From Syntrophorhabdus sp. (GTDB taxonomy: Bacteria; Desulfobacterota; Syntrophorhabdia; Syntrophorhabdales; Syntrophorhabdaceae): a DNA stretch of 34,493 nucleotides. The DNA is taken from positions 1 through 34,493 of the forward strand of contig JAAYAK010000050.1 of the NCBI GenBank assembly GCA_012719415.1, given 5' to 3'. Positions within the stretch are counted from its first letter, which is position 1, and each line of letters begins with the position of its first letter. The notes below the pieces were generated by a model. The model was not told the DNA's origin. It saw only the letters and a program-made list of their open reading frames with translations, and made no database searches. Both the position numbers and the translations under genes were made by a program. This document shows, piece by piece, positions 372-18,396 of this stretch.

Positions 372-1253
372 TTATGGCAGATAGATTGTACAGAACGCGG
401 TGAACGTCAGTTCGGGGGCAAATTCGCGGAATAGGTCCATGATCTTTTCCCGCTCTGGGTCGGAATCGGGTATTTGAATCGCCGCGTCGAGAGGGGTATG
501 CCCATCAAAATCCGCTATGTCGGTCGAGGCCCCGGCTTTGAGTAGCAACCTGATGATGCCGACGCGTTTCCGCTGACAGGCTATATGCAGGGGAGTTCTT
601 CCGAGTTTGTCCTGCGCATTCACCTCGGCTCCTTTCTGTAGGAGTACCGACACAATCTCCTCACCGCTCTTCCAGAGACTCGTATGAAGGGGTGTATTGC
701 CGTTCCTGTCGGCATGGATGTCCGGTACCGCTCTATGCTTGAGGAGTAGGTTCACGAGATCGAGCTTATTGCCATGACAGGCGGCGTGAAGGGGAACATA
801 TCCGCCATAATTCCTGATATTCACATCGGCTCCCCTGTCCAGGAGCGCTCGTACTATCTTTATGTTGCTCATCCACACGGCGGTTTGAAATGGAGTCTCG
901 CCGTCCTGCTTGCGCCCATCAAGTTTGTTCGGATCGGCATTGTACTTCAGAAGAAGGTCCACCATTTCAGTATCATCATGTTCGCACGCGCTGCTGAGCG
1001 GAAGCGATCCTCTGTATCTGCTTTTGTTCTTCTCCCTGCGCGAGGGCACATTCGGGTTCGCACCACGGTCCAGCAATAACCTGGGAATATCGAGGCCGTA
1101 GAAGTTGTATTTGCACACGGCATAGTACAATAGGGTCCGTCCGTCCTTCGCCGAGTTCGGGTCTACGCCGGCGTCCAGGAGTTTCTGGACTCTCGAGATA
1201 TCACCGTACGTCAGGCTACTTACGATGTCTGTTATCTTTGGATTCTTCTTCAT
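372..1253 (-). CDS. ankyrin-repeat protein
   Basis: A 293-residue protein built almost wholly of ankyrin repeats, which are helix-turn-helix units used for protein binding. About seven or eight units can be traced: roughly residues 5-35, 37-68, 80-112, 117-148, 149-182, 184-215, 217-248 and a last one from 250. Several match the G-x-TPLHxA...LLLxxGAxxN pattern closely (TPLHTSLW, TPLHIACQ, TPLDAAIQ). There is no signal peptide or membrane segment, so it is probably cytoplasmic, unlike most of its neighbours. The start ATG has only a weak GGGGG ribosome site. It is the last gene of a run of minus-strand genes coding for other repeat proteins and lipoproteins, but 218 nt separate it from the next one. 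Ankyrin proteins have no common catalytic role, so no specific function is assigned. Confidence 0.85.
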   Translation of the reverse strand: MKKNPKITDIVSSLTYGDISRVQKLLDAGVDPNSAKDGRTLLYYAVCKYNFYGLDIPRLLLDRGANPNVPSRREKNKSRYRGSLPLSSACEHDDTEMVDLLLKYNADPNKLDGRKQDGETPFQTAVWMSNIKIVRALLDRGADVNIRNYGGYVPLHAACHGNKLDLVNLLLKHRAVPDIHADRNGNTPLHTSLWKSGEEIVSVLLQKGAEVNAQDKLGRTPLHIACQRKRVGIIRLLLKAGASTDIADFDGHTPLDAAIQIPDSDPEREKIMDLFREFAPELTFTAFCTIYLP

Positions 1254-1453
1254 TTCTGTGCCCCCATTGAGTCTTCTTCATTCCGGGCCCTGCCGGGACT
1301 TAACCCATTTCGGCCGAACCCAGTCTGTTAACAGGCGGCGCGTGTCCCCCCCGCACACCAGGAACGTGCTCATCAAGGCGACCTCCGGGATCGTGTTGAA
1401 CGCCAACATGGAGACGAGGGTCAGGGTCGCCGCGACAGCATGTTGTGCTCCCT

Positions 1454-1511
1454 CATGCCGAGAATGTGGAACTATCCGGCATTGAGAGCCACACCGACAG
1501 TTCTCGGCATG
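1454..1511. repeat. 11-bp perfect inverted repeat spanning a stop codon
   Basis: CATGCCGAGAA (1454-1464) is repeated inverted as TTCTCGGCATG (1501-1511). Just inside, TGTGG (1465-1469) faces CCACA (1489-1493), so the two arms can form a 16-bp interrupted hairpin. The structure covers the last codons and stop of the lipoprotein gene at 1472-1966. There is no T-run on either side, so it is not a typical intrinsic terminator; it could stabilise or help end the transcript, or be a REP-like element. Confidence 0.6.
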
Positions 1512-1966
1512 CGAGAAATCCTTAAGGTCCACCCGGGAGAAAGTACTTCATGATGATGCATCCACCACATTCTCCCCCGCACGGGGCCGCTGTAACTGAA
1601 TGACTCGTGGAAACAGATCAGGCCTTCATGGGTCTTCGTGTCCTGCGCCCGGTCGACCTTCAGCCTGGAGATACCTGTCCAGGTGAGGTTGCGCGGGTTG
1701 GTGTCCCTGATGAAGTCCATGACGGCAAAGAGCGCCTTCTGGGGGTCTGCGGGCTTCGGGACCGGTCTCTCATCGAAGAGCTCCATCATCGCTGCCGTGT
1801 TCCCTTTCAGCGCGACGCTGGCCGCATGACACGCCACGCTGTAGGCGTTCTTCGGCCTCAGCACCTTGTTGTCGTTCTCAATATCGCCACCACAGCCCTG
1901 TAGGAATACTATGGCCACAAGGAGAATCACTATTGCCAGGATCGCGAGCAGTCCGTTTGTCTTCAA
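1472..1966 (-). CDS. small lipoprotein of unknown function
   Basis: A 164-residue predicted lipoprotein. An N-terminal hydrophobic segment (residues 5-22) ends in a lipobox, FLQGC, with Cys25 as the expected lipidation site, so the mature protein would be anchored in the cell envelope. I do not recognise the remaining domain; it contains WTGISRLKVDRAQDTKTHEG and a His/Trp-rich patch WWMHHH. The start is inferred as TTG at 1966, because a GGGAGG ribosome site (1972-1977) lies 5 nt before it. An ATG at 1970 is in another frame and overlaps this region. The gene begins 14 nt after the stop of the pentapeptide-repeat gene, so the two are very likely one operon. An inverted repeat overlaps its 3' end. 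Confidence 0.75.
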   Translation of the reverse strand: MKTNGLLAILAIVILLVAIVFLQGCGGDIENDNKVLRPKNAYSVACHAASVALKGNTAAMMELFDERPVPKPADPQKALFAVMDFIRDTNPRNLTWTGISRLKVDRAQDTKTHEGLICFHESFSYSGPVRGRMWWMHHHEVLSPGWTLRISRMPRTVGVALNAG

Positions 1967-1980
1967 TCATGCCTCCCGTA

Positions 1981-3135
1981 TTATTTTGCCTTCTTCTTTG
2001 CAGGCGGACGCCAGCCCAAAGGAAACTTCCTGGTGTCCTCTCTCCAGTAGTTCTCCGCCGTCTTCTTCAACTCTGCCCTCCACTGGGCCAGTTTGTCCAC
2101 GCCCGACGGGCTCAGGCATTTGTCTATGCTGCCGGGCTGGCATGTTGTTCCATCGAACCATATGACGCCGGTGAGATCCGCACCGGGGCCGAACCTAATG
2201 CATGTACTCCCGCTACTGGTACATTTCGCCCCGGTAAGGTCCATGCCGGACAGGTTCTTCGCCCCGTCCATGAAAATGACGCCGTTAATGGTCGCCCCCC
2301 TGAACGATACGTTTGTAAGGGTCGCTCCATCGAACCTGAACAGACCATAATCTCTGACCCTGCCCGATTGTGTCATCGTGACGGTAGTGCCCAAAACCGC
2401 GCCGGAAAAGTCAGCCCCGGTGAGGTCGGCCTTTTCGAACTCGAGACGGTGCAACTGTGCCCTGACAAATTTCGTACCCCTGAGATATCCCCGTCTGAGG
2501 TCCAGGTGACACATTTTGGCGTCTGTGAAGTCTGCTCCGGACAGGTCCGCCTGCGCCATGTATAATCCGTCATGTTGTATCTTCCCCCGGTGGTACCCAC
2601 ATTGGCGGAAGCCTTGTTCCACGCGCGCCAGATCGTTCTCCTCCTCCGTGTTCCACTCCGGGGTGAAGGCCTTCGTCTTCCAGTCCTTTTCATCGGGCAC
2701 CGGCAGGACAAAGCCCCTGAAATCCGCCCCCTGCATGTTGCACGGATACCACGTATTGCCTATGCGGATCCTTTCACAGTTGAAAGTGGCCTTGAACTCC
2801 CTTACGGCGGCCTCGATGACGGCCGGGACGACGGAGTTGCGTGACATCGCGGTTGTCCCCGAGTACGTTGCGCCGGGCACACCCCGGGAGACAGTTCCAG
2901 GGCCCTGTGACGTTGCGCTGGCCTCTGAGCCTGGAGCGGGCGGAGGCGGCGAATCCTTAAGCGGGTCATACGTCACCTGCTCTGAGGGCGTGAACTTCCA
3001 CTTGAGCTCCGCGGAACCCGCGGTCCCCCTCATAAGGCCGAAGATCAGGAACGCCGTCACCAGGACGAAGATCATGATCCTGACGGCCTTTCTCCTTTCC
3101 GTTTCCATGTCGAATGCGATCGCCCTTTCTCTCAT
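1981..3135 (-). CDS. membrane-anchored pentapeptide-repeat protein
   Basis: A 384-residue protein with one hydrophobic segment at about residues 18-38 (either an anchor or an uncleaved signal), then a Pro/Ser/Thr-rich linker (SPPPPAPGSE), then a C-terminal half of pentapeptide repeats. Units of the A(D/N)LxG type are seen in MQGADFRGF, QADLSGADFTDAK, KADLTGADFSGAV and GMDLTGAKC. Such repeats fold into a right-handed square beta-helix. The family includes DNA mimics that bind gyrase, but the predicted export makes an envelope role more likely here. The open frame extends 25 codons upstream; I chose ATG 3135 because GGGAGGA sits 7-8 nt before it and the upstream codons lack a ribosome site. It leads a two-gene unit with the lipoprotein downstream. 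Function unknown. Confidence 0.8.
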   Translation of the reverse strand: MRERAIAFDMETERRKAVRIMIFVLVTAFLIFGLMRGTAGSAELKWKFTPSEQVTYDPLKDSPPPPAPGSEASATSQGPGTVSRGVPGATYSGTTAMSRNSVVPAVIEAAVREFKATFNCERIRIGNTWYPCNMQGADFRGFVLPVPDEKDWKTKAFTPEWNTEEENDLARVEQGFRQCGYHRGKIQHDGLYMAQADLSGADFTDAKMCHLDLRRGYLRGTKFVRAQLHRLEFEKADLTGADFSGAVLGTTVTMTQSGRVRDYGLFRFDGATLTNVSFRGATINGVIFMDGAKNLSGMDLTGAKCTSSGSTCIRFGPGADLTGVIWFDGTTCQPGSIDKCLSPSGVDKLAQWRAELKKTAENYWREDTRKFPLGWRPPAKKKAK

Positions 3136-3513
3136 CTTACGTTCCTCCCTATCCTTTACGTACTTTAACGGTGCAATGCATAGTGACGGTACTTGGTTGA
3201 CTGTCCCCATCCTCTAATATGGTCATTCTGGAGTTGAATGCTGTGACGCACCCTCTGTGCGTGCCCACCCCTGCTTTCTGTCGAAGGAGCCGCACTCGCC
3301 TACCGAAAACAGTAGGGTGCGGATTTTACTGGATGCATGTCCGATCAGGAAACGGCTGGGGATCGATTATACTGCATATACGGCAAGGCCTTCCTCCGCT
3401 CAGGTTGTTCCCGACACCCCAATTGACAACTTCATGCCGCCGCCAATATTGGCAGCTGTCAACAAGCTGTCAACCCAATTCTCTCTTCCTATGAGGTGAA
3501 TCCACCGACTTGT
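3136..3513. other. intergenic region, no gene recognised
   Basis: This 378-nt gap separates the TPR gene from the pentapeptide-repeat gene, both on the minus strand. It should contain the promoter of the pentapeptide gene, but I see no clear hexamer pair. A short hairpin ACGCAC/GTGCGT (3246-3262, 5-nt loop) is present without a T-run. Short open frames here show no ribosome site or recognisable sequence. Confidence 0.6.
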
Positions 3514-4446
3514 TCACCAGGTCATGCCTCTTCCTTTCAGAAGTTCCTGTGCATCCCTGGATCCCAGTTTCGCCGCCTCTCTATAATCGTTTGTCTCCTG
3601 CCGCTGGTTGCCGAGTCTGCCGTAGGAAAACCCTCTGCTGTAGTAGGCTTCGGCGTGACGGGGATCGAGCTCAACGGCCTTGTTGCAGTCCTTTATCGCC
3701 TGCTGGTGATTCCCCATTTCGCCATAGGCTTTCCCTCTGTTGCTGTAGGCCATTGCGTACCCGGGATTAAGTTCTATTGCTCTGTTGAAGTCTTTTATCG
3801 CCTGCTGATGATCACCGAGCAAACTATAGGCGTCTCCTCTATTGTTGTAAGAAGTGGCATACCCAGGAGCGAGTTCTATCGCTTTGCTATAGTCCCTTAT
3901 CGCCTGCTGATGATCACCGAGCAAACTATAAGCGTTTCCTCTATTGTTGTACGCGTTGACGGACTTGGAATCGAGCTCAATGGCCTTGTTGCAGTCCTTT
4001 ATCGCCTGCTGGTAATTGCCCATTTTGCCGTTAGAAACCGCCCTGTTGATGTAAGCCGACACGTTGCGAGGATCGAGCTCAATGGCCATGCTGCAATCTT
4101 TCAGAGCCTTCTGGCAATCTCCAAGGTCGTTATAGGATCGTCCTCTATTGCTATAGGCAGCCGAATAGCGCGGATTGATGTCTATAGCCCTGTTCAAATC
4201 GCTTAACGCCTGCTGGGGATTGCCGAGGTGGTTGTACGCAGCACCCCTGTTGTTGTATGCCGCCGCATAGAAGAGGTCCTGTTCTATGGCCTTGCCGTAG
4301 GCCCTTATTGCCCCATCGTAATCGCCTTTCATCCTCAGCGCCTGACCCCTCTCGAACCATTTCTCGGCAGCGGTGGCAGCCTCTGCATGGAATGGGATGA
4401 GGAGCACCAAGGCTGCAACGATTCCTATCACAACCTTTGCTTTCAT
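3514..4446 (-). CDS. exported tetratricopeptide-repeat (TPR) protein
   Basis: A 310-residue protein with a signal peptide (residues 1-23, hydrophobic core VVIGIVAALVLLIPF, cleavage expected after AEA) followed by about eight tandem 34-residue TPR units. The repeats carry the usual pattern, for example AYNNRGNAYSLLGDHQQAI, DYSKAIELAPGYA and related forms. TPRs make a superhelical scaffold for protein binding, here in the periplasm or at the outer membrane. Neighbouring repeats are nearly identical at the DNA level (around 3800-3940), which suggests recent repeat duplication. A GTG at 4452 is in frame, but ATG 4446 is preferred because GAGG lies 5 nt before it. It is isolated by more than 200 nt on each side. 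The binding partner is unknown. Confidence 0.85.
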   Translation of the reverse strand: MKAKVVIGIVAALVLLIPFHAEAATAAEKWFERGQALRMKGDYDGAIRAYGKAIEQDLFYAAAYNNRGAAYNHLGNPQQALSDLNRAIDINPRYSAAYSNRGRSYNDLGDCQKALKDCSMAIELDPRNVSAYINRAVSNGKMGNYQQAIKDCNKAIELDSKSVNAYNNRGNAYSLLGDHQQAIRDYSKAIELAPGYATSYNNRGDAYSLLGDHQQAIKDFNRAIELNPGYAMAYSNRGKAYGEMGNHQQAIKDCNKAVELDPRHAEAYYSRGFSYGRLGNQRQETNDYREAAKLGSRDAQELLKGRGMTW

Positions 4447-4662
4447 ATTCACCTCAACAAGTGAAACCGGCCCCGATGCCTTCCGGACTGTTTCGCGGGA
4501 CCCCTTTCTCCGATCACTTCTTGCATTTCTCCCTCCTTGCCGAACCTTTCGACGACCTGGAGGTGGCTACGGTGTTAAGGGGATCCTCCTCAGGGCTTGT
4601 TCTCTGTTACACGTTATCTCCCAACCCGTCCGTGTATATGTCGATCGCCCGCCTCCTCCTTA

Positions 4663-7523: not shown

Positions 7524-9317
7524 TTACACAGCCACCGGCCTCGAAGGCACCCCGAACCCGATGGTCCTTGCCCTGTTGCCCTTCCTCAGGAACCTGTCCG
7601 CCACCCTCGGGTCCCATCTATTGAGGACCACCCTGTCTGGTGTCCCTGTCATCCCTTCCAGCTCCTTTGCCAGAAGGACAGTGAGCATCTCCTTCGCGAC
7701 CCTCAACGAGTCTGTTTCCAAGGCGATCCGCGCCGCCACGTCATCACTGACATCGATGATGAAGGGGAGTTTCCTCTGGATTCTCACCTGCTCTGCCATA
7801 TAGTCCCTGATGATGACCCGTCTGTCCTCCTCCCCGTAGAGAGGAACCTCGATGACCCTGCACCGGTCCAGGATGAACTGGGGAACGAGGGTGATGTCGT
7901 TCGCCGTCGCCACGAAGAAGGCCTTCGACAGGTCGACGGGGATGCCCGCCAGGAACTGGTCGGAAAACCGCATGGACTGGGTGACATCGAGGACCTCGGT
8001 GAGGACGGCAACGACGTCCCCGCTTGAGCCGTACCTCCCTGCCTTGTCGACCTCGTCGAGGAGGATGACGGGGTTCGAGCACCCGGCCTGGACGAGGATC
8101 CTGGTAAAAGCCCCCGGCACCGCCCCCAGCCACCCGAGGTTGCTCCCCTTGAGGGTGATGATGTCCGCGTTCCCCGAGAAGCTCACCGTGAAGAAGGGAA
8201 GACCGAGGGCCTCGGCGAGCGCACCTGCGACGGAGGTCTTCCCCGTCCCCGGGGGACCGGCGAGGAGAAAGGGTGCGGGTGTGGCGGACCCTTGTGCATA
8301 CCCGGCGAGGACGACCTCGAGCCGGATCTGCTCCTTCACCCCTTCCATGGCGTAGAGCCTCCTGTCGAGGGTCTCCATCACGGACCGGGCGTCGAGGTTC
8401 TGTTTTCGGGTGACGCCGTACGGAAGGGCGGTGACGGTCTCGAAGAGGGTCGCCTCCTTCTGCCCGTCGTTACCGACCGAGGACGCGAGGGTCCGTATCC
8501 CCTGTCCTACGTCCTGCCCAGCCTGACCAAAGTAGACAAGGAGCTTCCCGTAGACGACAAGGAGCCTCTTCGCCTCCTCCCAGTACCCCTTCTTCCCGGG
8601 ACTCATGCCGGAACGGTCCACTGCGGCCCCGATGAGGCGCCGCCTCTCCTCCATGGTCGCAAGGGATGCGAACTCCCACCCGACAAGGGGAAGGACCTCG
8701 GAGAGGATGATGGTCTTGTCCACGGGGTCACGGACATCCCAGGCGGGGCAGCCCTCCAGTTTCTCCCTGCGCGCCTCGTCGAGGCTCCGCCCCTTTGTGC
8801 CGAGAGTATCGAGAATGTTGCGGAGGTACTGAAGCTCCGCGGCAGTAAAGGGGCCCGTGACATCCTCCTGCCTCTCGGCTGCCTTCAGCCGGTTCCTCTT
8901 GCCGGCGAGGTCGAGGTTGAGGAGCCTGATGGCGGCAAAGTACATCTCCAGGCTCTGCGCCATCTGCCGGGGGGTGCGGCCGAAGAAGGCGAGGAGCTTG
9001 AAGAAGGCGACGGGGAATTCCCCCTCCTGCCAGGAGGCACTGGCCACGTCCGCGGCGATGGCCGTGTCCACGAACCTCACCCGGTCGAAGGTGCTCTTGA
9101 GGGAACCGAACTCCCCCCGAATGTAGTCCAAGAGGCCGGCGGTGTTTACGCTCTCGTCGGGCATGAGGGTGTCCTTCATGAAGGCCCTGTCGGGTTTCCC
9201 CCGCTCCTGTGCCTCCTCCTTCTCCTCGTCGGTCATGTTCGCGGTGTCGGCGGCGCTTGCCACCATCCACAGCGTCATCAGGTCACCCGTCGAAAACATG
9301 GACGCATCTCTCCCCAT
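7524..9317 (-). CDS. Lon-like AAA+ ATPase without a protease domain
   Basis: A 597-residue protein. Residues from about 315 to 520 form an AAA+ module that follows Lon ATPases closely: LDRRLYAMEGVKEQI, Walker A GPPGTGKT (354-361), the GxxxIRG-like region, PGAFTRILVQAG, Walker B ILLDEVDK (from 418), sensor 1 FVATAND (468-474), arginine finger LDRCRVIEVP (Arg485) and a sensor-2-like Arg near 539. The chain ends about 60 residues later, with no Ser-Lys protease domain. The first 310 residues match neither the Lon substrate domain nor anything I recognise; they are helical and acidic near the start (MTDEEKEEAQERGK). The frame opens at 9347, but ATG 9317 is preferred because GGAGG lies 6-8 nt before it. 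It probably remodels or unfolds a partner protein. The divergent neighbour gene at 9461 shares its codon style and is the obvious partner candidate. Confidence 0.8.
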   Translation of the reverse strand: MGRDASMFSTGDLMTLWMVASAADTANMTDEEKEEAQERGKPDRAFMKDTLMPDESVNTAGLLDYIRGEFGSLKSTFDRVRFVDTAIAADVASASWQEGEFPVAFFKLLAFFGRTPRQMAQSLEMYFAAIRLLNLDLAGKRNRLKAAERQEDVTGPFTAAELQYLRNILDTLGTKGRSLDEARREKLEGCPAWDVRDPVDKTIILSEVLPLVGWEFASLATMEERRRLIGAAVDRSGMSPGKKGYWEEAKRLLVVYGKLLVYFGQAGQDVGQGIRTLASSVGNDGQKEATLFETVTALPYGVTRKQNLDARSVMETLDRRLYAMEGVKEQIRLEVVLAGYAQGSATPAPFLLAGPPGTGKTSVAGALAEALGLPFFTVSFSGNADIITLKGSNLGWLGAVPGAFTRILVQAGCSNPVILLDEVDKAGRYGSSGDVVAVLTEVLDVTQSMRFSDQFLAGIPVDLSKAFFVATANDITLVPQFILDRCRVIEVPLYGEEDRRVIIRDYMAEQVRIQRKLPFIIDVSDDVAARIALETDSLRVAKEMLTVLLAKELEGMTGTPDRVVLNRWDPRVADRFLRKGNRARTIGFGVPSRPVAV

Positions 9318-9391
9318 GATCGCCTCCTCCCATTGCGATCGTTGCACGGAATGTTTGATTGTGATTAATAACGATAATATACTACTATATA

Positions 9392-10813: not shown

Positions 10814-13800
10814 TTATGCTTTGTCGATTTTCATCACCCGGACAACTCTCGTCGGCTGCCCAGGGATTTCAAAATCGTCCTCTTCCCCGACTGATAAGCC
10901 AAGTAACGGGACGGCGATGGGCGCGTTTTCGTTCACCATCTTCATGTCGGGATTGCTGGGCCCATCTGTGATCCATACAGTGTACTTCACGTCTGGCTTG
11001 TCTTTGAAGCTATAGGTAACACGATCTCCGACCTCAACGAATATATCCTCAACGTCATTGATGCTGAGTGCCTCGGTCACTTCTCGGTCGAGAGCAAGAC
11101 CCTGAACCTCGACCTGCTCGTCTTCGACTTCTTCCACCTCAGGCTCGTATTCAAGCTCTTGATCAGGCCCTACCATCAACCGGCACCTATCAAGAAACTC
11201 GAAGAGCCTCTGTGCCTCAATTCTAGGATTTGTGAACCAGTCTGTTGACCATATCCGCCATATCCGGTTCTTCCAGCCGAGCGACTCGAGAATCTCTTGT
11301 CGGATCCTGTCCCGATCTCTTACCGAAGCGCCGCTATGGTAGGTTGCTCCATCGCATTCGATCGCTGCCATAAGGTGACCCGGCCTGTCGGGATTATGAA
11401 CTACCATGTCAATGAAGAAGCCCGCTACGCCGAACTGCGGCGTGACTGTATATCCTTTGTCACGGAGAAGGTCGGCGACAGCGAGTTCAAAGTCGCTGTC
11501 CGGCTCCCTGGAGGTGAATCCGGTTTCTGCAAGTATCCCCTTCTTGGCAAAATCCAAGTAATCCCTCAACGCCTTTGTGCCGATCGGTGTCTTCTCGTCA
11601 AGGATGATGTCCTCTGACGTCATCGACGTGAAGAGGTGAATTCTCCTTCTGGCTCTGGTAAAAAGAACGTTCAACCGCCGCCATCCTGTCTCCCTGCTGA
11701 TAGGTCCGAAATTCTGGCGTGGACGGCTTGCACCTGGCGCTTTACCAAACGTCGTGGAGATCATAATAACGTCGCGCTCGTCACCTTGGACGTTCTCCAG
11801 ATTTTTGACGAAAAACGGCCACCCATCCTCCCTGTGACGGCGCAGGTACTCATCCCCTTCGGAAAACACCCTTAGGCGTCTGTCAAGAAGCTCCTCAATG
11901 AGATCCCGCTGCGATTGATTGAGCGTAACCACCCCAAGAGATTCTTCGGGATGCTTTATCATATGCTCGCAAACGAGGTCCACAACCTTTTGAGCCTCGG
12001 GGATATTCTGTCTGTTCTGATACGCGCCGTTTCTCACATAATGATAACGGACCCCGAGACTCCCCGACCTGCGAAAGGGTGATGGGAAAACCACCAAGTT
12101 CTTGTAAAAGTGAAAGTTTGAGAAAGCGATTAGCGAGTCGTGCTGCGAACGATAGTGCCACCGCAGACTTCTAGTTGGCGAGAAGAGCTGCTGGCAGATA
12201 TCCAGAATGCTCTCCATCCCTTGTATCGCAGGAACTTCTCCTTCATCCTCTTCTTCACCGGACTCGAGCATGCGATCGAAGAAATTGGTCGGCGGTAGCT
12301 GCTTCGCGTCACCCACCACCACGAGCTGAGCGCCGCGAGCGACCGCGCCTATAGCCTCTTCAGGTTTGAGCTGAGACGCTTCGTCCATGATCACGATGTC
12401 AAACTTCAGCGATTCTGGATCGAGATACTGGGCAACAGAAAGTGGGCCCATCATGAAACAGGGCTTAAGCTCCTGCACTGCGCGGCCTGCACGCTTCAGG
12501 AGTTGGCGGATAGGAATGTGCCGGCGGGTCTTGTTAATCTCCCTGAGAATGAGCTCCATCTCGGTGTAATCTTTGGCATACGGGCCTTTGTGACCCATCG
12601 GAGGCCGTTTCTGCTTGTCGATCTGAAAGGCGAGATCCTTGCCCCGAAGGTCTATCATTTCCTTGTCAAGTTTCTGGTAGTCCTGCCGTATAGAATCATG
12701 AGACAGACCGTTGAAGCGCGCCAGCTCGGGGAATTTCCGATAAGTACTCTTCGCAATTGTGTTGTAGCCAACAAACTCTACGGCCATGCCAAGCTTGTCA
12801 GGCTCTATATCCCCGGCCTCCATGGCCGCCACAAGTAGGCGCAAACCATCTTGGGGGCAGGCAGCTCTTGCGGCGAGATACTTGGACCAGCTAAAGAGGC
12901 CAGGGAGATTGTCGAAGGCAATCTCAAGACGCCTCTTGATTTGCTTGGGCGCCGTTTTCTCTATCCCGATTTCTGACTGCTGTTGCCATTGCGCCAGACT
13001 GAACTCCCCGAATTGCCCGAGTTTTGAGAGGGCGTTCCTTACATTGGCGAAAGCCGAGAGTGTATTGTCGACGATCCGTATGACATCTACCAGCAGATCA
13101 TCCCCGTCCTTATTCAGAATATTCAGGAACAGATCCCTTGACAGACCACAGGTTGCGATGCTGCGCCCCCATTCGAAGGTGGCTCGAAGAGACTCCTGAT
13201 CGGTTGCGAGACCCTGATAGCGTGCCCCGATCATGGCCGATATCTCCGGATTCCTTTCGATGCGGTTAAGGATCTCAAAGCTCTTTTTTTCGTTGAAGAG
13301 CGCATTCACGCCTTCCCTAACGGACTTTTCGCTCTGCAATCTTCCTGAGAAAAAGTCTGCGAGTGCATGGAGTGCTCTGACCATCTCCTGGACGTGCGCA
13401 TGATACACGGGCCAGTCATTCAGGGTATGCGCTATGAGAGAAACGTCTTTCAGAGAATCATCCAAGGCAAGCTTCGCCTTGATTGATATCAACGCATCGG
13501 CAGCGGTAGTATTTCGCGGGAAAGCCTTAAGATAATCCGTGAGGCGCTCAATTTTGCGGCAGTTAGCCTCAATGACCGGCAGGTGCTGAAACCATGAACC
13601 GATTGTCGGTGTGGCCATAAATGGTAGAATCGTACCGGCTGCCTGCGCGATCTCTTCATTTGTGCTCAACCTTGTAAGCTCAGGTGACATACGGGATAGC
13701 TCGGCTGCTGCCTTCATATGTTGAAGCGCATTTTTGGGCGAGACAATCTGATCGACAAACCGGGAGAAGAACTGGAGGACCTCTCCGAGTTGTCGCGAGA

Positions 13801-16800
13801 AATCAGCTAGCGCCGAGATGTAGGTGGTGCAGTCTTGCCGCTTCGCGTTCTCCAGATCGAAAATGCTTGCTTCCAGCGCCGCTTCTGCCTGTGCGTAATT
13901 GTCGAATATGGATGTGACTGCCTCAGTTATGCCATTTGCCCTCACCGCCAGTTGGCCGATTCTAGCTGCTTCACAGGATGTGAGATCCATTTTCTCTGTG
14001 AGACTAGGCTGCTCCAGCAGTATCTGGTGGCTCTCCTTGTACCAGTCGCGGAGCGCCCTGACCTTTGAAATATTCGTCTCGAGACCGCAGAAGAGAGGTC
14101 CTATACACTCCCTGAACTCCGGGTCAGAGACAAGGTTCTCCCGGTGTTCCACCCACCGAATAATGTTGGAAATGACCCCGGCCCATTCTGTTGTGTTATA
14201 CTTCTTCTTGGCTCTAGAAATACCCTTGACGGCTTTCTTGGTCTGCCGGTAATCACGCCTTAGAAAGCTGAAGGCATTGCTGCCCTGTCGTAAGGTTCTC
14301 AAATGAGACCTCAATTCGATGATGGGAGGCAGGGTGTCAAGATATACCAAAGACTCGAGCTCGCCGCGCCACGACGCCTCTCGTGCGAGCCCATCGTGAA
14401 GCCGGTCGACAAGTTGATCTGCGACCGGTTGGCCGAAGAACTCCTTACGGTAGGCGAGTAGTTCTTGGGGAGCTCTGGCTGCAATTTGTGCAAGAGCTTG
14501 CAGTTCAAGAAGCTGCAGCTCTGTTCCTTCAATTTCTTCTATCCGGAGGTGGTTACAAGCCTTCTTGAGGCTGCTGAAGGATTTTTCAAGTCGGTCCACG
14601 ACTAGCCTAAGCTTTGCATGAGTTTCCTGCAGCTCTTGAAGAGTGCGGCTAGAGAGCGGAAACTCACAGAGGCGTCTCGCTTCCACGAGATCTTCCGCGC
14701 TTACTTTGGTGCCTGGTCTTAACTCGCGTATCCCTGTTGTCAGTATCTGTTTGGCTGACGCCGGCGTTCCGTCGAAAGTCAGATTGCCTTTCTGTATAAC
14801 CGCTTGCATCTTCTGAACGTCGGCGGCTAGGATATCGTGTTTTTGCAGCACGGCATTAACAGCCACTTCGAGGTCACCGAGTGGTCTGTCGAGGATGTCC
14901 ATGCCGTCCAATTTCGCGATTAGGATTTCAAGACCGTATTGATATGCCTCGGTTGCGTCCCGGTACGCCATGGATTCGCATTCGGGAGAATCTTCAAAAC
15001 TGGCCAGTGCTGCCGCGATTGACTCCGCCATGGTTATTATGGCTCCGGGATTTCCCCCTACAACCTCGGGGAGGCAGTTTTTTTCAACGGCTCTCAGCAA
15101 CGGTGTCACAACATCTGCCGTAAGGCCGTGGTTGGGGACGAGAATCATGGCGGCACATTCCGTGAGTCTCCTAGCCTCGTATATTGCCTCGAATGTCTTG
15201 TTCAGAACCTCACCTGCCCGGGAGCCGTCCAAATCTTCTGGTGCAAAGAACTTTGAGAGAAGGCCATAAACAAAGTTGACGGGGATATCCGGGATTGTGG
15301 CAAGGCGGCTACGAATTACCTCGAAGCCTGCCTCGTCAAAACACTCCTCTCCTCCCAACCCCCGATATTGTCCGATCGATTCAGTGATGGTATCGGCATG
15401 CTCCGTTGCTTCAAGCAGTATTTCGGCAATGGCATGTTCATCACCGGGGATGATTGGCCTCGGATAAAAACCCCACCACGGGTGATCCGGTCCGAAGCAA
15501 CCAATGGTGGGGAATAACTTTGCTGGCTCTTCGAGCACACTGCGGTACTTCTGCAGGTCTTCGTGACTCCATTGCGACATGTCTTGAATGCTTGCCGCAG
15601 AAAGCCGGTCTGTACATTCGCCAAGATCCTGACGTCGCCGGGACACAGCCCAGAAGATCTCGTTGACCGTTTTACCTAACTCGTTACCGAAATAGCTTCC
15701 CATAAGCTCCGCATACCTTGCCAGTTTCTCTCTGTTGGCTGAGAGCTGTGCCAGGTGCGAATGAAGGGACATTTGGCGAAAGCGTCGCGATATCCGCTCG
15801 TCCAGGGCCTCGACAAACTTTTTCTTCTGTGTTTTGTTGCTGTGAAGCTCCAAGCAGAAATCACCGAGACCTGCCATCTGCAATCGTCTCTGAACAACCT
15901 CGAGGGCGGCAAGTTTCTCCGATACAAAAAGAACTTTCTTGCCCTGGGCGAGGACTGCCGCGATAATGTTGGTAATAGTCTGTGATTTGCCGGTGCCGGG
16001 AGGTCCATTGATGACCATGTTCTTGCCTGCTAGAACGTCGATGATTGCGCTATGCTGCGAGGAGTCGGCATCATAAACGAGAGGTTGGTTGGCTTCCTCC
16101 ACCTTGTCAATCGTATAATCCTCGGGGGAAAAGCCATCACTGTTAGGCGTCGACCCTCCCTCGAAGATCATATTCAAGAGAGGATGCTTTATGAGCCCGG
16201 GCCATTTGTTATCATCGAGATCTGCCCAGATGGCCAGCTTACCGAAAGAGAGCATGCCAAGCGTGAGTTGCCGCCGTATCCTCCATCGCCGCTTATTTGC
16301 CACCGCGCTGTGTATCTTCTGAAAATACGTCTCCGGCGTGTCTTCATCCTCAAGTTCGGGAATGATCAGGGAAAAATCTTGGCGAAGTTTCTCTCTAAGC
16401 GTTTGATTTTCGGCGACATCCTCGCCAGTATAGTTGAGAACGTAGGTATAGATGCGTGTCTCTGGGTCAACCCCAATTCTCTCAAGTGATACCGGTACCG
16501 AGATTATTGGAGCAAACATTGGTTTCTGAGATGCATCGTCTTCGTAGAACTCGAGAAAACCGAATATGAGAAAGAGGATATTACTGCCTGTCTCCTCGAT
16601 TGAGCTTTTGGCGTCAGTGCTTATCTTTTTCAGGAGCCTTTCAAGCTCGACCGGATAATGAAGGGCCTGCAGGCTGATATTCCGATGGTTCGGCCCATTG
16701 ACAGGTGCTTCCATCGACACGTCGATTCCGAGTGATTCTGCGTACTGTTTCGCATCAGGTCGTTTTTCGCCAACCGTTAGAGGCTCTGGCTCCGGGACCC

Positions 16801-17041
16801 ATTTGATGGACAATGCCTTACCATCTATAATCTTGTCAAAGACTGTGTCGAGGTTCTGAACACCGGCGAACTGGACGGACCTGTTCTTTGGGTAACGGTA
16901 GCTGAGAAGACGATTGCGCGAGGTGAGATCGAGTAGGCGTACTCTTAACCGGCGTATTGCCTCCTGAATTGGCAGTTTGCCGGAAAACAGTTCGCTGACT
17001 ATTTCATTCGCATCCGCAGCTTGATATGCCGTAGAGTCCAT
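10814..17041 (-). CDS. giant DUF4011-type SF1 helicase fused to a Vsr/MTES_1575-like nuclease and a GreA-like tail
   Basis: A 2075-residue protein. Domains in order: a DUF4011-like N-terminus (residues 24-80, IRRLRVRLLDLTSRNRLLSY); an SF1 helicase core with Walker A GPPGTGKSQ (346-354); a very long helical insert of about 1,100 residues; Walker B IVIMDEASQL (Asp1553-Glu1554); WHYRSQHD near 1628; and motifs ENVQGDERDVIMIST and RRLNVLFTRARRR (about 1785-1800). Then comes a PD-(D/E)xK fold of the Vsr/MTES_1575 type: Asp1878, ECDGATYHSG (Glu1895, His1902), RDRDRIRQ and WRIWSTDWF. After an acidic linker, residues 2002-2075 resemble the GreA/GreB C-terminal domain (APIAVPLLGLSVGEED). All core motifs are intact, so it should be active. 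Helicase-Vsr fusions occur in phage defence (the Hhe type, which has a HEPN domain not seen here). GC and codon use look lower than in the pst region, which fits acquisition. A short-spaced AAGAGG precedes the ATG. Confidence 0.85.
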   Translation of the reverse strand: MDSTAYQAADANEIVSELFSGKLPIQEAIRRLRVRLLDLTSRNRLLSYRYPKNRSVQFAGVQNLDTVFDKIIDGKALSIKWVPEPEPLTVGEKRPDAKQYAESLGIDVSMEAPVNGPNHRNISLQALHYPVELERLLKKISTDAKSSIEETGSNILFLIFGFLEFYEDDASQKPMFAPIISVPVSLERIGVDPETRIYTYVLNYTGEDVAENQTLREKLRQDFSLIIPELEDEDTPETYFQKIHSAVANKRRWRIRRQLTLGMLSFGKLAIWADLDDNKWPGLIKHPLLNMIFEGGSTPNSDGFSPEDYTIDKVEEANQPLVYDADSSQHSAIIDVLAGKNMVINGPPGTGKSQTITNIIAAVLAQGKKVLFVSEKLAALEVVQRRLQMAGLGDFCLELHSNKTQKKKFVEALDERISRRFRQMSLHSHLAQLSANREKLARYAELMGSYFGNELGKTVNEIFWAVSRRRQDLGECTDRLSAASIQDMSQWSHEDLQKYRSVLEEPAKLFPTIGCFGPDHPWWGFYPRPIIPGDEHAIAEILLEATEHADTITESIGQYRGLGGEECFDEAGFEVIRSRLATIPDIPVNFVYGLLSKFFAPEDLDGSRAGEVLNKTFEAIYEARRLTECAAMILVPNHGLTADVVTPLLRAVEKNCLPEVVGGNPGAIITMAESIAAALASFEDSPECESMAYRDATEAYQYGLEILIAKLDGMDILDRPLGDLEVAVNAVLQKHDILAADVQKMQAVIQKGNLTFDGTPASAKQILTTGIRELRPGTKVSAEDLVEARRLCEFPLSSRTLQELQETHAKLRLVVDRLEKSFSSLKKACNHLRIEEIEGTELQLLELQALAQIAARAPQELLAYRKEFFGQPVADQLVDRLHDGLAREASWRGELESLVYLDTLPPIIELRSHLRTLRQGSNAFSFLRRDYRQTKKAVKGISRAKKKYNTTEWAGVISNIIRWVEHRENLVSDPEFRECIGPLFCGLETNISKVRALRDWYKESHQILLEQPSLTEKMDLTSCEAARIGQLAVRANGITEAVTSIFDNYAQAEAALEASIFDLENAKRQDCTTYISALADFSRQLGEVLQFFSRFVDQIVSPKNALQHMKAAAELSRMSPELTRLSTNEEIAQAAGTILPFMATPTIGSWFQHLPVIEANCRKIERLTDYLKAFPRNTTAADALISIKAKLALDDSLKDVSLIAHTLNDWPVYHAHVQEMVRALHALADFFSGRLQSEKSVREGVNALFNEKKSFEILNRIERNPEISAMIGARYQGLATDQESLRATFEWGRSIATCGLSRDLFLNILNKDGDDLLVDVIRIVDNTLSAFANVRNALSKLGQFGEFSLAQWQQQSEIGIEKTAPKQIKRRLEIAFDNLPGLFSWSKYLAARAACPQDGLRLLVAAMEAGDIEPDKLGMAVEFVGYNTIAKSTYRKFPELARFNGLSHDSIRQDYQKLDKEMIDLRGKDLAFQIDKQKRPPMGHKGPYAKDYTEMELILREINKTRRHIPIRQLLKRAGRAVQELKPCFMMGPLSVAQYLDPESLKFDIVIMDEASQLKPEEAIGAVARGAQLVVVGDAKQLPPTNFFDRMLESGEEEDEGEVPAIQGMESILDICQQLFSPTRSLRWHYRSQHDSLIAFSNFHFYKNLVVFPSPFRRSGSLGVRYHYVRNGAYQNRQNIPEAQKVVDLVCEHMIKHPEESLGVVTLNQSQRDLIEELLDRRLRVFSEGDEYLRRHREDGWPFFVKNLENVQGDERDVIMISTTFGKAPGASRPRQNFGPISRETGWRRLNVLFTRARRRIHLFTSMTSEDIILDEKTPIGTKALRDYLDFAKKGILAETGFTSREPDSDFELAVADLLRDKGYTVTPQFGVAGFFIDMVVHNPDRPGHLMAAIECDGATYHSGASVRDRDRIRQEILESLGWKNRIWRIWSTDWFTNPRIEAQRLFEFLDRCRLMVGPDQELEYEPEVEEVEDEQVEVQGLALDREVTEALSINDVEDIFVEVGDRVTYSFKDKPDVKYTVWITDGPSNPDMKMVNENAPIAVPLLGLSVGEEDDFEIPGQPTRVVRVMKIDKA

Positions 17042-17643: not shown

Positions 17644-18294
17644 TTACCACGATCCCGGCTTTTGCAACGACCTGCCATCGGGGGTGACGAACGGATTCGG
17701 GAATTGACAGGCCTGGTATCGGTCAATGCCGATTGTAAAGGAATCTGTCGCAATATTTGCAAGTTCAGTATTCTTCCGCCTGAAGGGAAACGCGCAGTAC
17801 ACCCGTTTTTCGGGAAACAGATTGAATGCCGTTCTAATGGCCGGCATGATGTCCGTGTCTCCCGTTACCAAAACGATGCTGTCACATTGATCTAGAACGA
17901 ACAATTCGAGCAGCTTCACCGAGATCGCCACATCTGTTTCCTTTTCCTCATAATGCTTCACAAGGGTCTTGCAGCCATTGCAGTACACATCCTTTGCCTT
18001 GAATCTTCCCATCTCCACTTTTACACCTGTAGCTTTCAGGCATTCAATGAAAAGCTCATGACGCGCGATTATCCCCGGGTCCTTATCCTGGCGATGAAAG
18101 GCAAATGCGGAGAAATAGTAGATCTCTTCGAGGGTGGCTCGGGGGGTCAAGGAAGGAAGATACATCCGGCAAAGCTTATGGATGTCGAGCCATTTGACGT
18201 TACGCTGTTTATACCGCCAGCAGGCATCGTTCAGCGAATGATACAGGTTAAATCCATCTATGAGGAATGTGGTCCTGTTCATTGTCAGGGGCAT
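17644..18294 (-). CDS. NYN-domain (PIN-like) ribonuclease
   Basis: A 216-residue protein of the NYN/DUF88 (LabA-like) family, PIN-fold metal-dependent RNases. The acidic active-site residues are in place: Asp13 in FLIDGFNLYHS (with Asn16), Glu119 and Asp121 in EEKETDVAISVKLLE, and Asp146/Asp148 in VTGDTDIMPA. A CxxC (YCNGC, Cys105 and Cys108) may bind metal, as in many DUF88 members. An in-frame ATG four codons in (18282) is an alternative start; neither has a standard ribosome site, though AAAGGG lies in the 3' arm of the leader hairpin about 12 nt before ATG 18294. A strong promoter 75-100 nt upstream and a terminator just before the start codon suggest control by read-through. NYN proteins act in RNA processing and in some phage-defence settings; the target here is unknown. 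Confidence 0.88.
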   Translation of the reverse strand: MPLTMNRTTFLIDGFNLYHSLNDACWRYKQRNVKWLDIHKLCRMYLPSLTPRATLEEIYYFSAFAFHRQDKDPGIIARHELFIECLKATGVKVEMGRFKAKDVYCNGCKTLVKHYEEKETDVAISVKLLELFVLDQCDSIVLVTGDTDIMPAIRTAFNLFPEKRVYCAFPFRRKNTELANIATDSFTIGIDRYQACQFPNPFVTPDGRSLQKPGSW

Positions 18295-18368: not shown

Positions 18369-18396
18369 ATTATAAACCGCTCGATAATAATGTCAA
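18369..18396 (-). promoter_or_regulatory. strong sigma-70 promoter for the NYN leader
   Basis: On the minus strand a perfect TTGACA (18396-18391) is followed after 16 nt by a perfect TATAAT (18374-18369), in an AT-rich context. It drives transcription into the structured leader and the NYN gene. Confidence 0.85.

Follow-up and report, generated by a model that had tools for sequence, protein, structure and literature searches.

The window analysed here, a 34,493-nucleotide stretch of DNA from Syntrophorhabdus sp. (contig JAAYAK010000050.1), carries a single large gene coding for a helicase-nuclease that ends in a GreA-like tail. The open reading frame (ORF), of 2075 residues, occupies positions 10814 to 17041 of the minus strand with no internal stop; its ATG lies at 17041 and is preceded by an AGAGG about 5 nt on its 5' side. 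The G+C content is 52% in this gene versus 56% across the window. A first-pass annotation had placed the ORF at exactly these limits, without giving the strand, and had read its product as a DUF4011-type superfamily 1 (SF1) helicase with an intact Vsr/MTES_1575-like nuclease, which Pfam bears out.

On the minus strand, the coding sequence begins with the DUF4011 domain (residues 35-219, positions 16385-16939; PF13195, 6e-33), followed by a Walker A motif, GPPGTGKS, identified by its position and by AAA_19/AAA_30 matches (residues 346-353, 15983-16006). The second half of the helicase (residues 1543-1804, 11630-12415) is covered by AAA_11/AAA_12 and contains the motifs DEAS at 1553, GDAKQLPP at 1577, QGDERD at 1752 and FTRARRR at 1794. 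The MTES_1575 Vsr-like nuclease comes next (residues 1851-1950, 11192-11491; PF18741, 1.2e-32). Family alignments place its nuclease residues, correctly named beforehand, at D1878 within FFIDM and at E1895 within IECDG, and these residues and the helicase motifs are all intact. From these motifs, the helicase and the Vsr-type nuclease are predicted to act on DNA. The nuclease is separated from the last domain by 51 residues (1951-2001, 11039-11191) forming an acidic linker, with 18 D/E versus 3 K/R and low confidence in the part that was modelled. The protein ends with a GreA/GreB C-terminal domain (GreA/B-C; residues 2002-2073, 10823-11038), which was recognised by Pfam, profile search of the PDB, AlphaFold2 and Foldseek.

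Identity of the C-terminal tail

When the whole protein was searched with Pfam, GreA_GreB matched residues 2002-2073 with 24.1 bits (3.6e-5), slightly below the cut-off of 26.9 bits. The tail scored alone against PF01272 exceeded this cut-off with 30.7 bits (3.1e-7), as did the match obtained in the search of its own genome (30.4 bits). The same model was matched separately, at E 0.01 or better, by all 37 tails of the window protein and its GreA-tailed relatives (best 3.6e-17). A profile of these tails searched against the PDB returned, as its top eight, GreA, Gfh1, a GreA/Gfh1 chimera, Rnk, Nitrosomonas GreA/GreB and GreB, with E. coli GreA at 1.2e-10. In AlphaFold2, 73 residues of the window tail were modelled with a predicted local distance difference test (pLDDT) score of 90 or more, and Foldseek placed only Gre-family chains at ranks 1-14 of the PDB, then HelD at rank 15, with FKBPs further down and weakly scored. 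Identity to true Gre factors was low in these matches (17-27%). A chance or false match is ruled out by the 37 PF01272 matches, the PDB profile hits and the Foldseek ranks, and the assignment to GreA/GreB made in the first-pass annotation is confirmed by hidden Markov model, PDB profile and predicted fold.

Gre-type factors bind RNA polymerase through their globular C-terminal domain (PMC4598747, PMC3132773), and GreA/B compete with DksA for the enzyme through a similar binding mode (PMC4598747). The S127E substitution abolishes the activity of MtbGre, and its effect was looked at by pull-down with RNA polymerase (PMC3132773). The residue of the window protein aligned with this serine is A2040. 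S127 corresponds to S119 of E. coli GreA in the numbering of that paper, and we take it to be the serine of N-S-P, judging from the D36/E39 offset given there (PMC3132773). The serine-proline loop of Gre factors is retained in the family, Pro2041 and Gly2048 being present in 35 of the 37 tails. The Gre N-terminal coiled coil with its acidic tip was not found in the window protein, where the Pfam match is to the C-terminal domain only and the stretch directly before it is the acidic linker described above.

Recurrence and exchange of the tail among relatives

Relatives, designated below by locus labels (L), were gathered from genomes of the window's own phylum, plasmids, IMG/VR and genome contigs. 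Apart from the window protein, 36 helicase-nucleases were found to end in GreA/B-C, in several separately placed lineages and in two helicase families; such an end, which had seemed unusual at first reading, is thus recurrent. In a tree of 98 helicase-nuclease cores from which the tail was left out, the window protein falls inside a clade of 28 rows (starred branch, 99), among which 23 are GreA-tailed and come from beta- and deltaproteobacteria, Bdellovibrionota, Nitrospirota and Acidobacteriota. GreA tails also occur beyond this clade, in L102, which stands beside L118 in the clade that contains Hhe, in the alphaproteobacterial L136, L144 and L050, and in L134. A second helicase family, with no DUF4011 in Pfam, is GreA-tailed as well (L051, L053, L054-L056, L070 and L071). 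The starred branches of the tree require the tail state to have changed at least 9 times, the direction of each change being left aside. A one-off fusion or an artefact of the window's assembly is excluded by the 36 other tails, which include those of the cultured Brachymonas chironomi DSM 19884 and Variovorax sp. JS1663. A further helicase-nuclease homologue (55% in the nuclease) is encoded in the Brachymonas chironomi genome (G425:C21:2313-2633), and in G365 a GreA-tailed helicase-nuclease (L053:9806-17048) is followed by several genes resembling radical SAM proteins by eye.

For pairs with an estimable synonymous rate (dS), the ratio of nonsynonymous to synonymous substitutions (dN/dS) was 0.08-0.25 in the tail versus 0.02-0.04 in the nuclease, rough values since dS approaches saturation in several of them; they are consistent with a used, faster-evolving module. 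The gene is accessory, for the 11 further genomes of the genus all lacked a match to the window protein and only 6 of the 46 genomes of the class had one.

The most informative exchange was seen in an Akkermansia muciniphila metagenome-assembled genome. Its protein, L100, lies inside the GreA-tailed clade as the sister of the GreA-tailed L083 (starred branch, 97) and has the two-residue insertion in the nuclease that is typical of this clade. Its tail (L100:10286-10939) is of the DksA/TraR type and not GreA/B-C, with zf-dskA_traR at 1.7e-7, above the cut-off, and PDB matches to DksA (1tjl, 5e-4) and to a DnaK suppressor (6ptg, 1e-17). Over about 155 residues it is 71% identical to the product of a gene that stands alone in this genome (L173), and matches to this tail part predominate among those listed for 289 genomes of the Akkermansia phylum. 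In L100, a secondary-channel factor of RNA polymerase thus appears to have given way to another one, coming from the host lineage. Although limited to one sequence, this swap is the strongest evidence that the tail slot may serve RNA polymerase binding. GreA/B-C is the portion of Gre factors that binds the beta' coiled coil of RNA polymerase, and the predicted docking on polymerase, put forward at first reading, thereby gains independent though indirect backing.

Other exchanges were observed. Two metagenomic IMG/VR loci, L071 and L075, show 76.5% DNA identity along the 7.3 kb leading to the tail and 74.6% past the gene; their tails are unrelated, being GreA/B-C in the former and an end with no Pfam match in the latter. 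In the Chlorobium relative L101, the slot is occupied by an FGE-sulfatase domain (L101:1535-2437). The gene after L101 resembles a transposase, and no reverse transcriptase was seen on the short L101 contig. A tail-less relative is directly followed by a 193-residue ORF with no Pfam match and with an RNxVIH-like motif recalling HEPN (L097:7256-7834). Among relatives the slot after the nuclease contains GreA/B-C or, in its place, a DksA/TraR-type protein of the host, an FGE domain, DUF3320 or helical tails without assignment; it looks like an exchangeable targeting module, probably aimed in the window family at RNA polymerase.

Neighbouring genes

Several relatives stand next to defence genes. 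Downstream of the helicase-nuclease, six of them have type I restriction-modification genes, namely hsdM, hsdS and hsdR in L059, L060, L086, L087 and L089, and hsdS and hsdR in L085; PADLOC confirmed hsdM for L060 and L086, hsdS and hsdR being recognised by reading and clustering alone. In L060 hsdM starts 2 nt past the helicase frame, and in L086 it abuts the frame. A GmrSD-like DUF262 gene adjoins in L059, L087, L089 and L090, the copy of L087 corresponding to PADLOC Orf5/HEC-06. A WYL regulator lies upstream of the gene in L087, L089 and L090, Wadjet JetC is present beside L090 with a JetC relative beside L087, and a PD-(D/E)XK gene follows L092. Of these, L087 and L092 come from cultured isolates.

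Upstream of the helicase-nuclease gene in the window, the nearest recognisable gene of that strand lies about 600 bp away and encodes a 216-residue NYN-domain protein (17644-18294, minus strand; Pfam NYN, 1e-8) of the PADLOC candidate defence family HEC-09 (1.8e-48). Upstream of it, a promoter-like site on the minus strand, TTGACA-16-TATAAT (18369-18396), agrees with the consensus at 12 of 12 positions, as a consensus match only. A tRNA-bounded island was discarded, since the 3' end of the tRNA-Ala is not repeated in the window. Further along the minus strand, 7524-9347 encodes a 607-residue AAA+ ATPase weakly resembling defence AAA proteins (IetA, TRIP13), and 372-4452 holds a run of repeat-protein genes recognised by eye (ankyrin repeats, pentapeptide repeats and TPR).

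Relation to known systems and predicted role

The closest described systems are anti-phage or candidate defence proteins. Hhe (NCBIfam NF042953, PADLOC PDLC02194) is also a single large gene and shares with the window protein the DUF4011, the SF1 helicase halves and the MTES_1575 nuclease. This set is the same in two Hhe controls from Vibrio and Klebsiella, and the kinship with Hhe indicated at first reading is supported. The window protein scored 1417.5 bits with the Hhe model, below the curated equivalog cut-off of 2000 bits, which is passed by both controls (2195 bits for Vibrio, 2744 for Klebsiella). These controls (L018 and L019) end in a tail with no Pfam match instead of GreA/B-C, and they belong to another clade of 19 rows (starred branch, 100), apart from that of the window. 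Both the cut-off and the tree thus rule out filing the protein as Hhe. The absence of HEPN, which had been put forward as a distinction, does not serve as one, because the two Hhe proteins above the NCBIfam cut-off have no HEPN in Pfam either. The best PADLOC match was the candidate defence protein PDC-S37, with 1252.6 bits over helicase and nuclease; it stops at position 1363 of the 1550 of the profile, whose last part has no counterpart in the window protein, which ends in GreA/B-C instead. The anti-phage protein ProA (NCBIfam NF058533) gave 1122.5 bits over the helicase-nuclease, and its cut-off of 1500 bits excludes an assignment to it. The window protein probably works on DNA like Hhe and PDC-S37.

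The MTES_1575 giants (HEPN, transglutaminase, SF1 helicase, Vsr and winged helix-turn-helix (wHTH); PMC3710099) likewise have an SF1 helicase followed by the MTES_1575 nuclease and a C-terminal module, a wHTH which their authors proposed to recognise invading DNA (PMC3710099). Their HEPN, transglutaminase and wHTH/DUF3320 have no equivalent in the window protein, where the C-terminal module is GreA/B-C and where neither HEPN nor a C-terminal wHTH (DUF3320) was found with Pfam up to E 0.1. GreA/B-C is shared with the presumed counter-invader TPR-GreA/B-C-PIN proteins of conflict systems, in which it has been suggested to attach to RNA polymerase engaged in transcribing viral DNA (PMC8195603). 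These combine TPR, a PIN RNase and varied N-terminal effectors, with a proposed cutting of transcripts, whereas the window protein has an SF1 helicase and a DNA nuclease, and no TPR or PIN domain in Pfam. HelD, like the window protein, combines an SF1-helicase-like part with a Gre/DksA-like domain, which in HelD enters the secondary channel of RNA polymerase (PMC7749160). HelD clears nucleic acids from the polymerase while holding it through this domain (PMC7749160), which is N-terminal with a coiled coil and with no nuclease described, in contrast to the C-terminal position beside a nuclease seen here. The suggestion of the first-pass annotation that the tail could bring the nuclease to polymerase is strengthened by the identity of the domain and is not new, since for other proteins it had already been published that GreA/B-C would carry a defence effector to the polymerase at work on viral DNA (PMC8195603). 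Hhe-type helicase-nucleases and the docking idea were thus known before; the helicase-Vsr-GreA/B-C form is apparently new, no description of it or of the DksA-tailed form having been found in the main texts of the open-licence literature.

On balance we lean towards a single-gene accessory defence enzyme, a relative of Hhe and PDC-S37 that would be tethered to the RNA polymerase of its host. The helicase and the Vsr-type nuclease would act on DNA, and the GreA/B-C module would attach the protein to the beta' coiled coil of RNA polymerase, at the secondary channel, as suggested by homology, by the DksA/TraR-type replacement and by the precedent of HelD. An RNA polymerase-binding globular domain lacking the Gre coiled coil would be expected to dock without stimulating transcript cleavage, because this coiled coil is missing. 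The most likely consequence would be that helicase and nuclease are held beside DNA that is being transcribed by, or is stalling, RNA polymerase, and actively transcribed foreign DNA could then be unwound and cut. Host DNA may be spared through modification by a neighbouring type I system, through a requirement for stalled or phage-altered polymerase, or through DNA ends. More tentatively, we propose a transcription-coupled restriction, in which anti-phage helicase-nucleases with exchangeable secondary-channel-factor modules (GreA/B-C, DksA/TraR) would travel with the RNA polymerase of the host and attack the DNA that is being transcribed, paired in some lineages with a type I operon that could mark self.

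Several observations weigh against this tethered defence enzyme, whose binding to polymerase and role against phages are themselves predictions from sequence. RNA polymerase transcribes host DNA too, and the window gives no visible sign of self-protection, no methylase having been seen in it. At the docking loop the window tail deviates from the family, with K2034 (G in 32 of 37), P2045 (A in 30 of 37) and also V2044. The DksA-tailed fusion was met once only, in a metagenome-assembled genome, and no second one was found in IMG/VR, plasmids or the 289 same-phylum genomes; an assembly chimera is unlikely because the frame of 2190 residues is unbroken and the tail differs from the host copy. Most Hhe relatives have no recognised RNA polymerase-binding tail. 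The type I association concerns mostly one sub-clade, so that the defence neighbours are not independent, and many other loci have ordinary neighbours.

The main rival to a coupling with transcription is that the tail monitors RNA polymerase. The enzyme would rest on the polymerase until a phage modified, occupied or shut off the beta' rim; this would free or activate it, and the nuclease would then degrade DNA broadly. The identity of the tail and the DksA swap apply here equally, the acidic flexible linker would suit a releasable tether, and the sparing of self is easier to explain than under constant coupling; but nothing points to a phage factor, to a partner gene or to abortive killing, and we judge this surveillance role rather unlikely. 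The low identity to true Gre factors, the FKBP-related fold of the domain, the deviant docking loop of the window copy and the unrelated tails of other relatives could also mean that the tail is an FKBP-like protein-binding domain which no longer binds RNA polymerase and instead helps in folding or oligomer formation or recognises some other partner. The best matches are all Gre-type RNA polymerase factors ahead of FKBPs, however, the proline and glycine of the Gre loop are kept in nearly all tails, and the nested L100 swaps the domain for another secondary-channel factor, which makes such a loss of binding unlikely. HelD, an SF1-type factor with a Gre/DksA-like domain, and the ordinary genes around some loci would fit a housekeeping protein comparable to HelD or Mfd, acting in transcription-replication conflict, on R-loops or in repair rather than in immunity. 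We hold this for very improbable given the patchy distribution (0 of 11 genomes in the genus, 6 of 46 in the class), the type I restriction, Wadjet and GmrSD-like genes adjoining relatives, the strongest family matches being to the defence models PDC-S37 and Hhe, and the repeated replacement of the tail.

If the tethered enzyme that we favour is correct, anti-phage nucleases would be linked to RNA polymerase, and foreign DNA would be found via its transcription and not via sequence or modification alone. The varied contents of the tail slot provide natural tail-swap pairs with which the targeting module of Hhe-like enzymes may be probed, and the family would offer a concrete test case for the published, unproven idea that GreA/B-C docks on polymerase in conflict systems.

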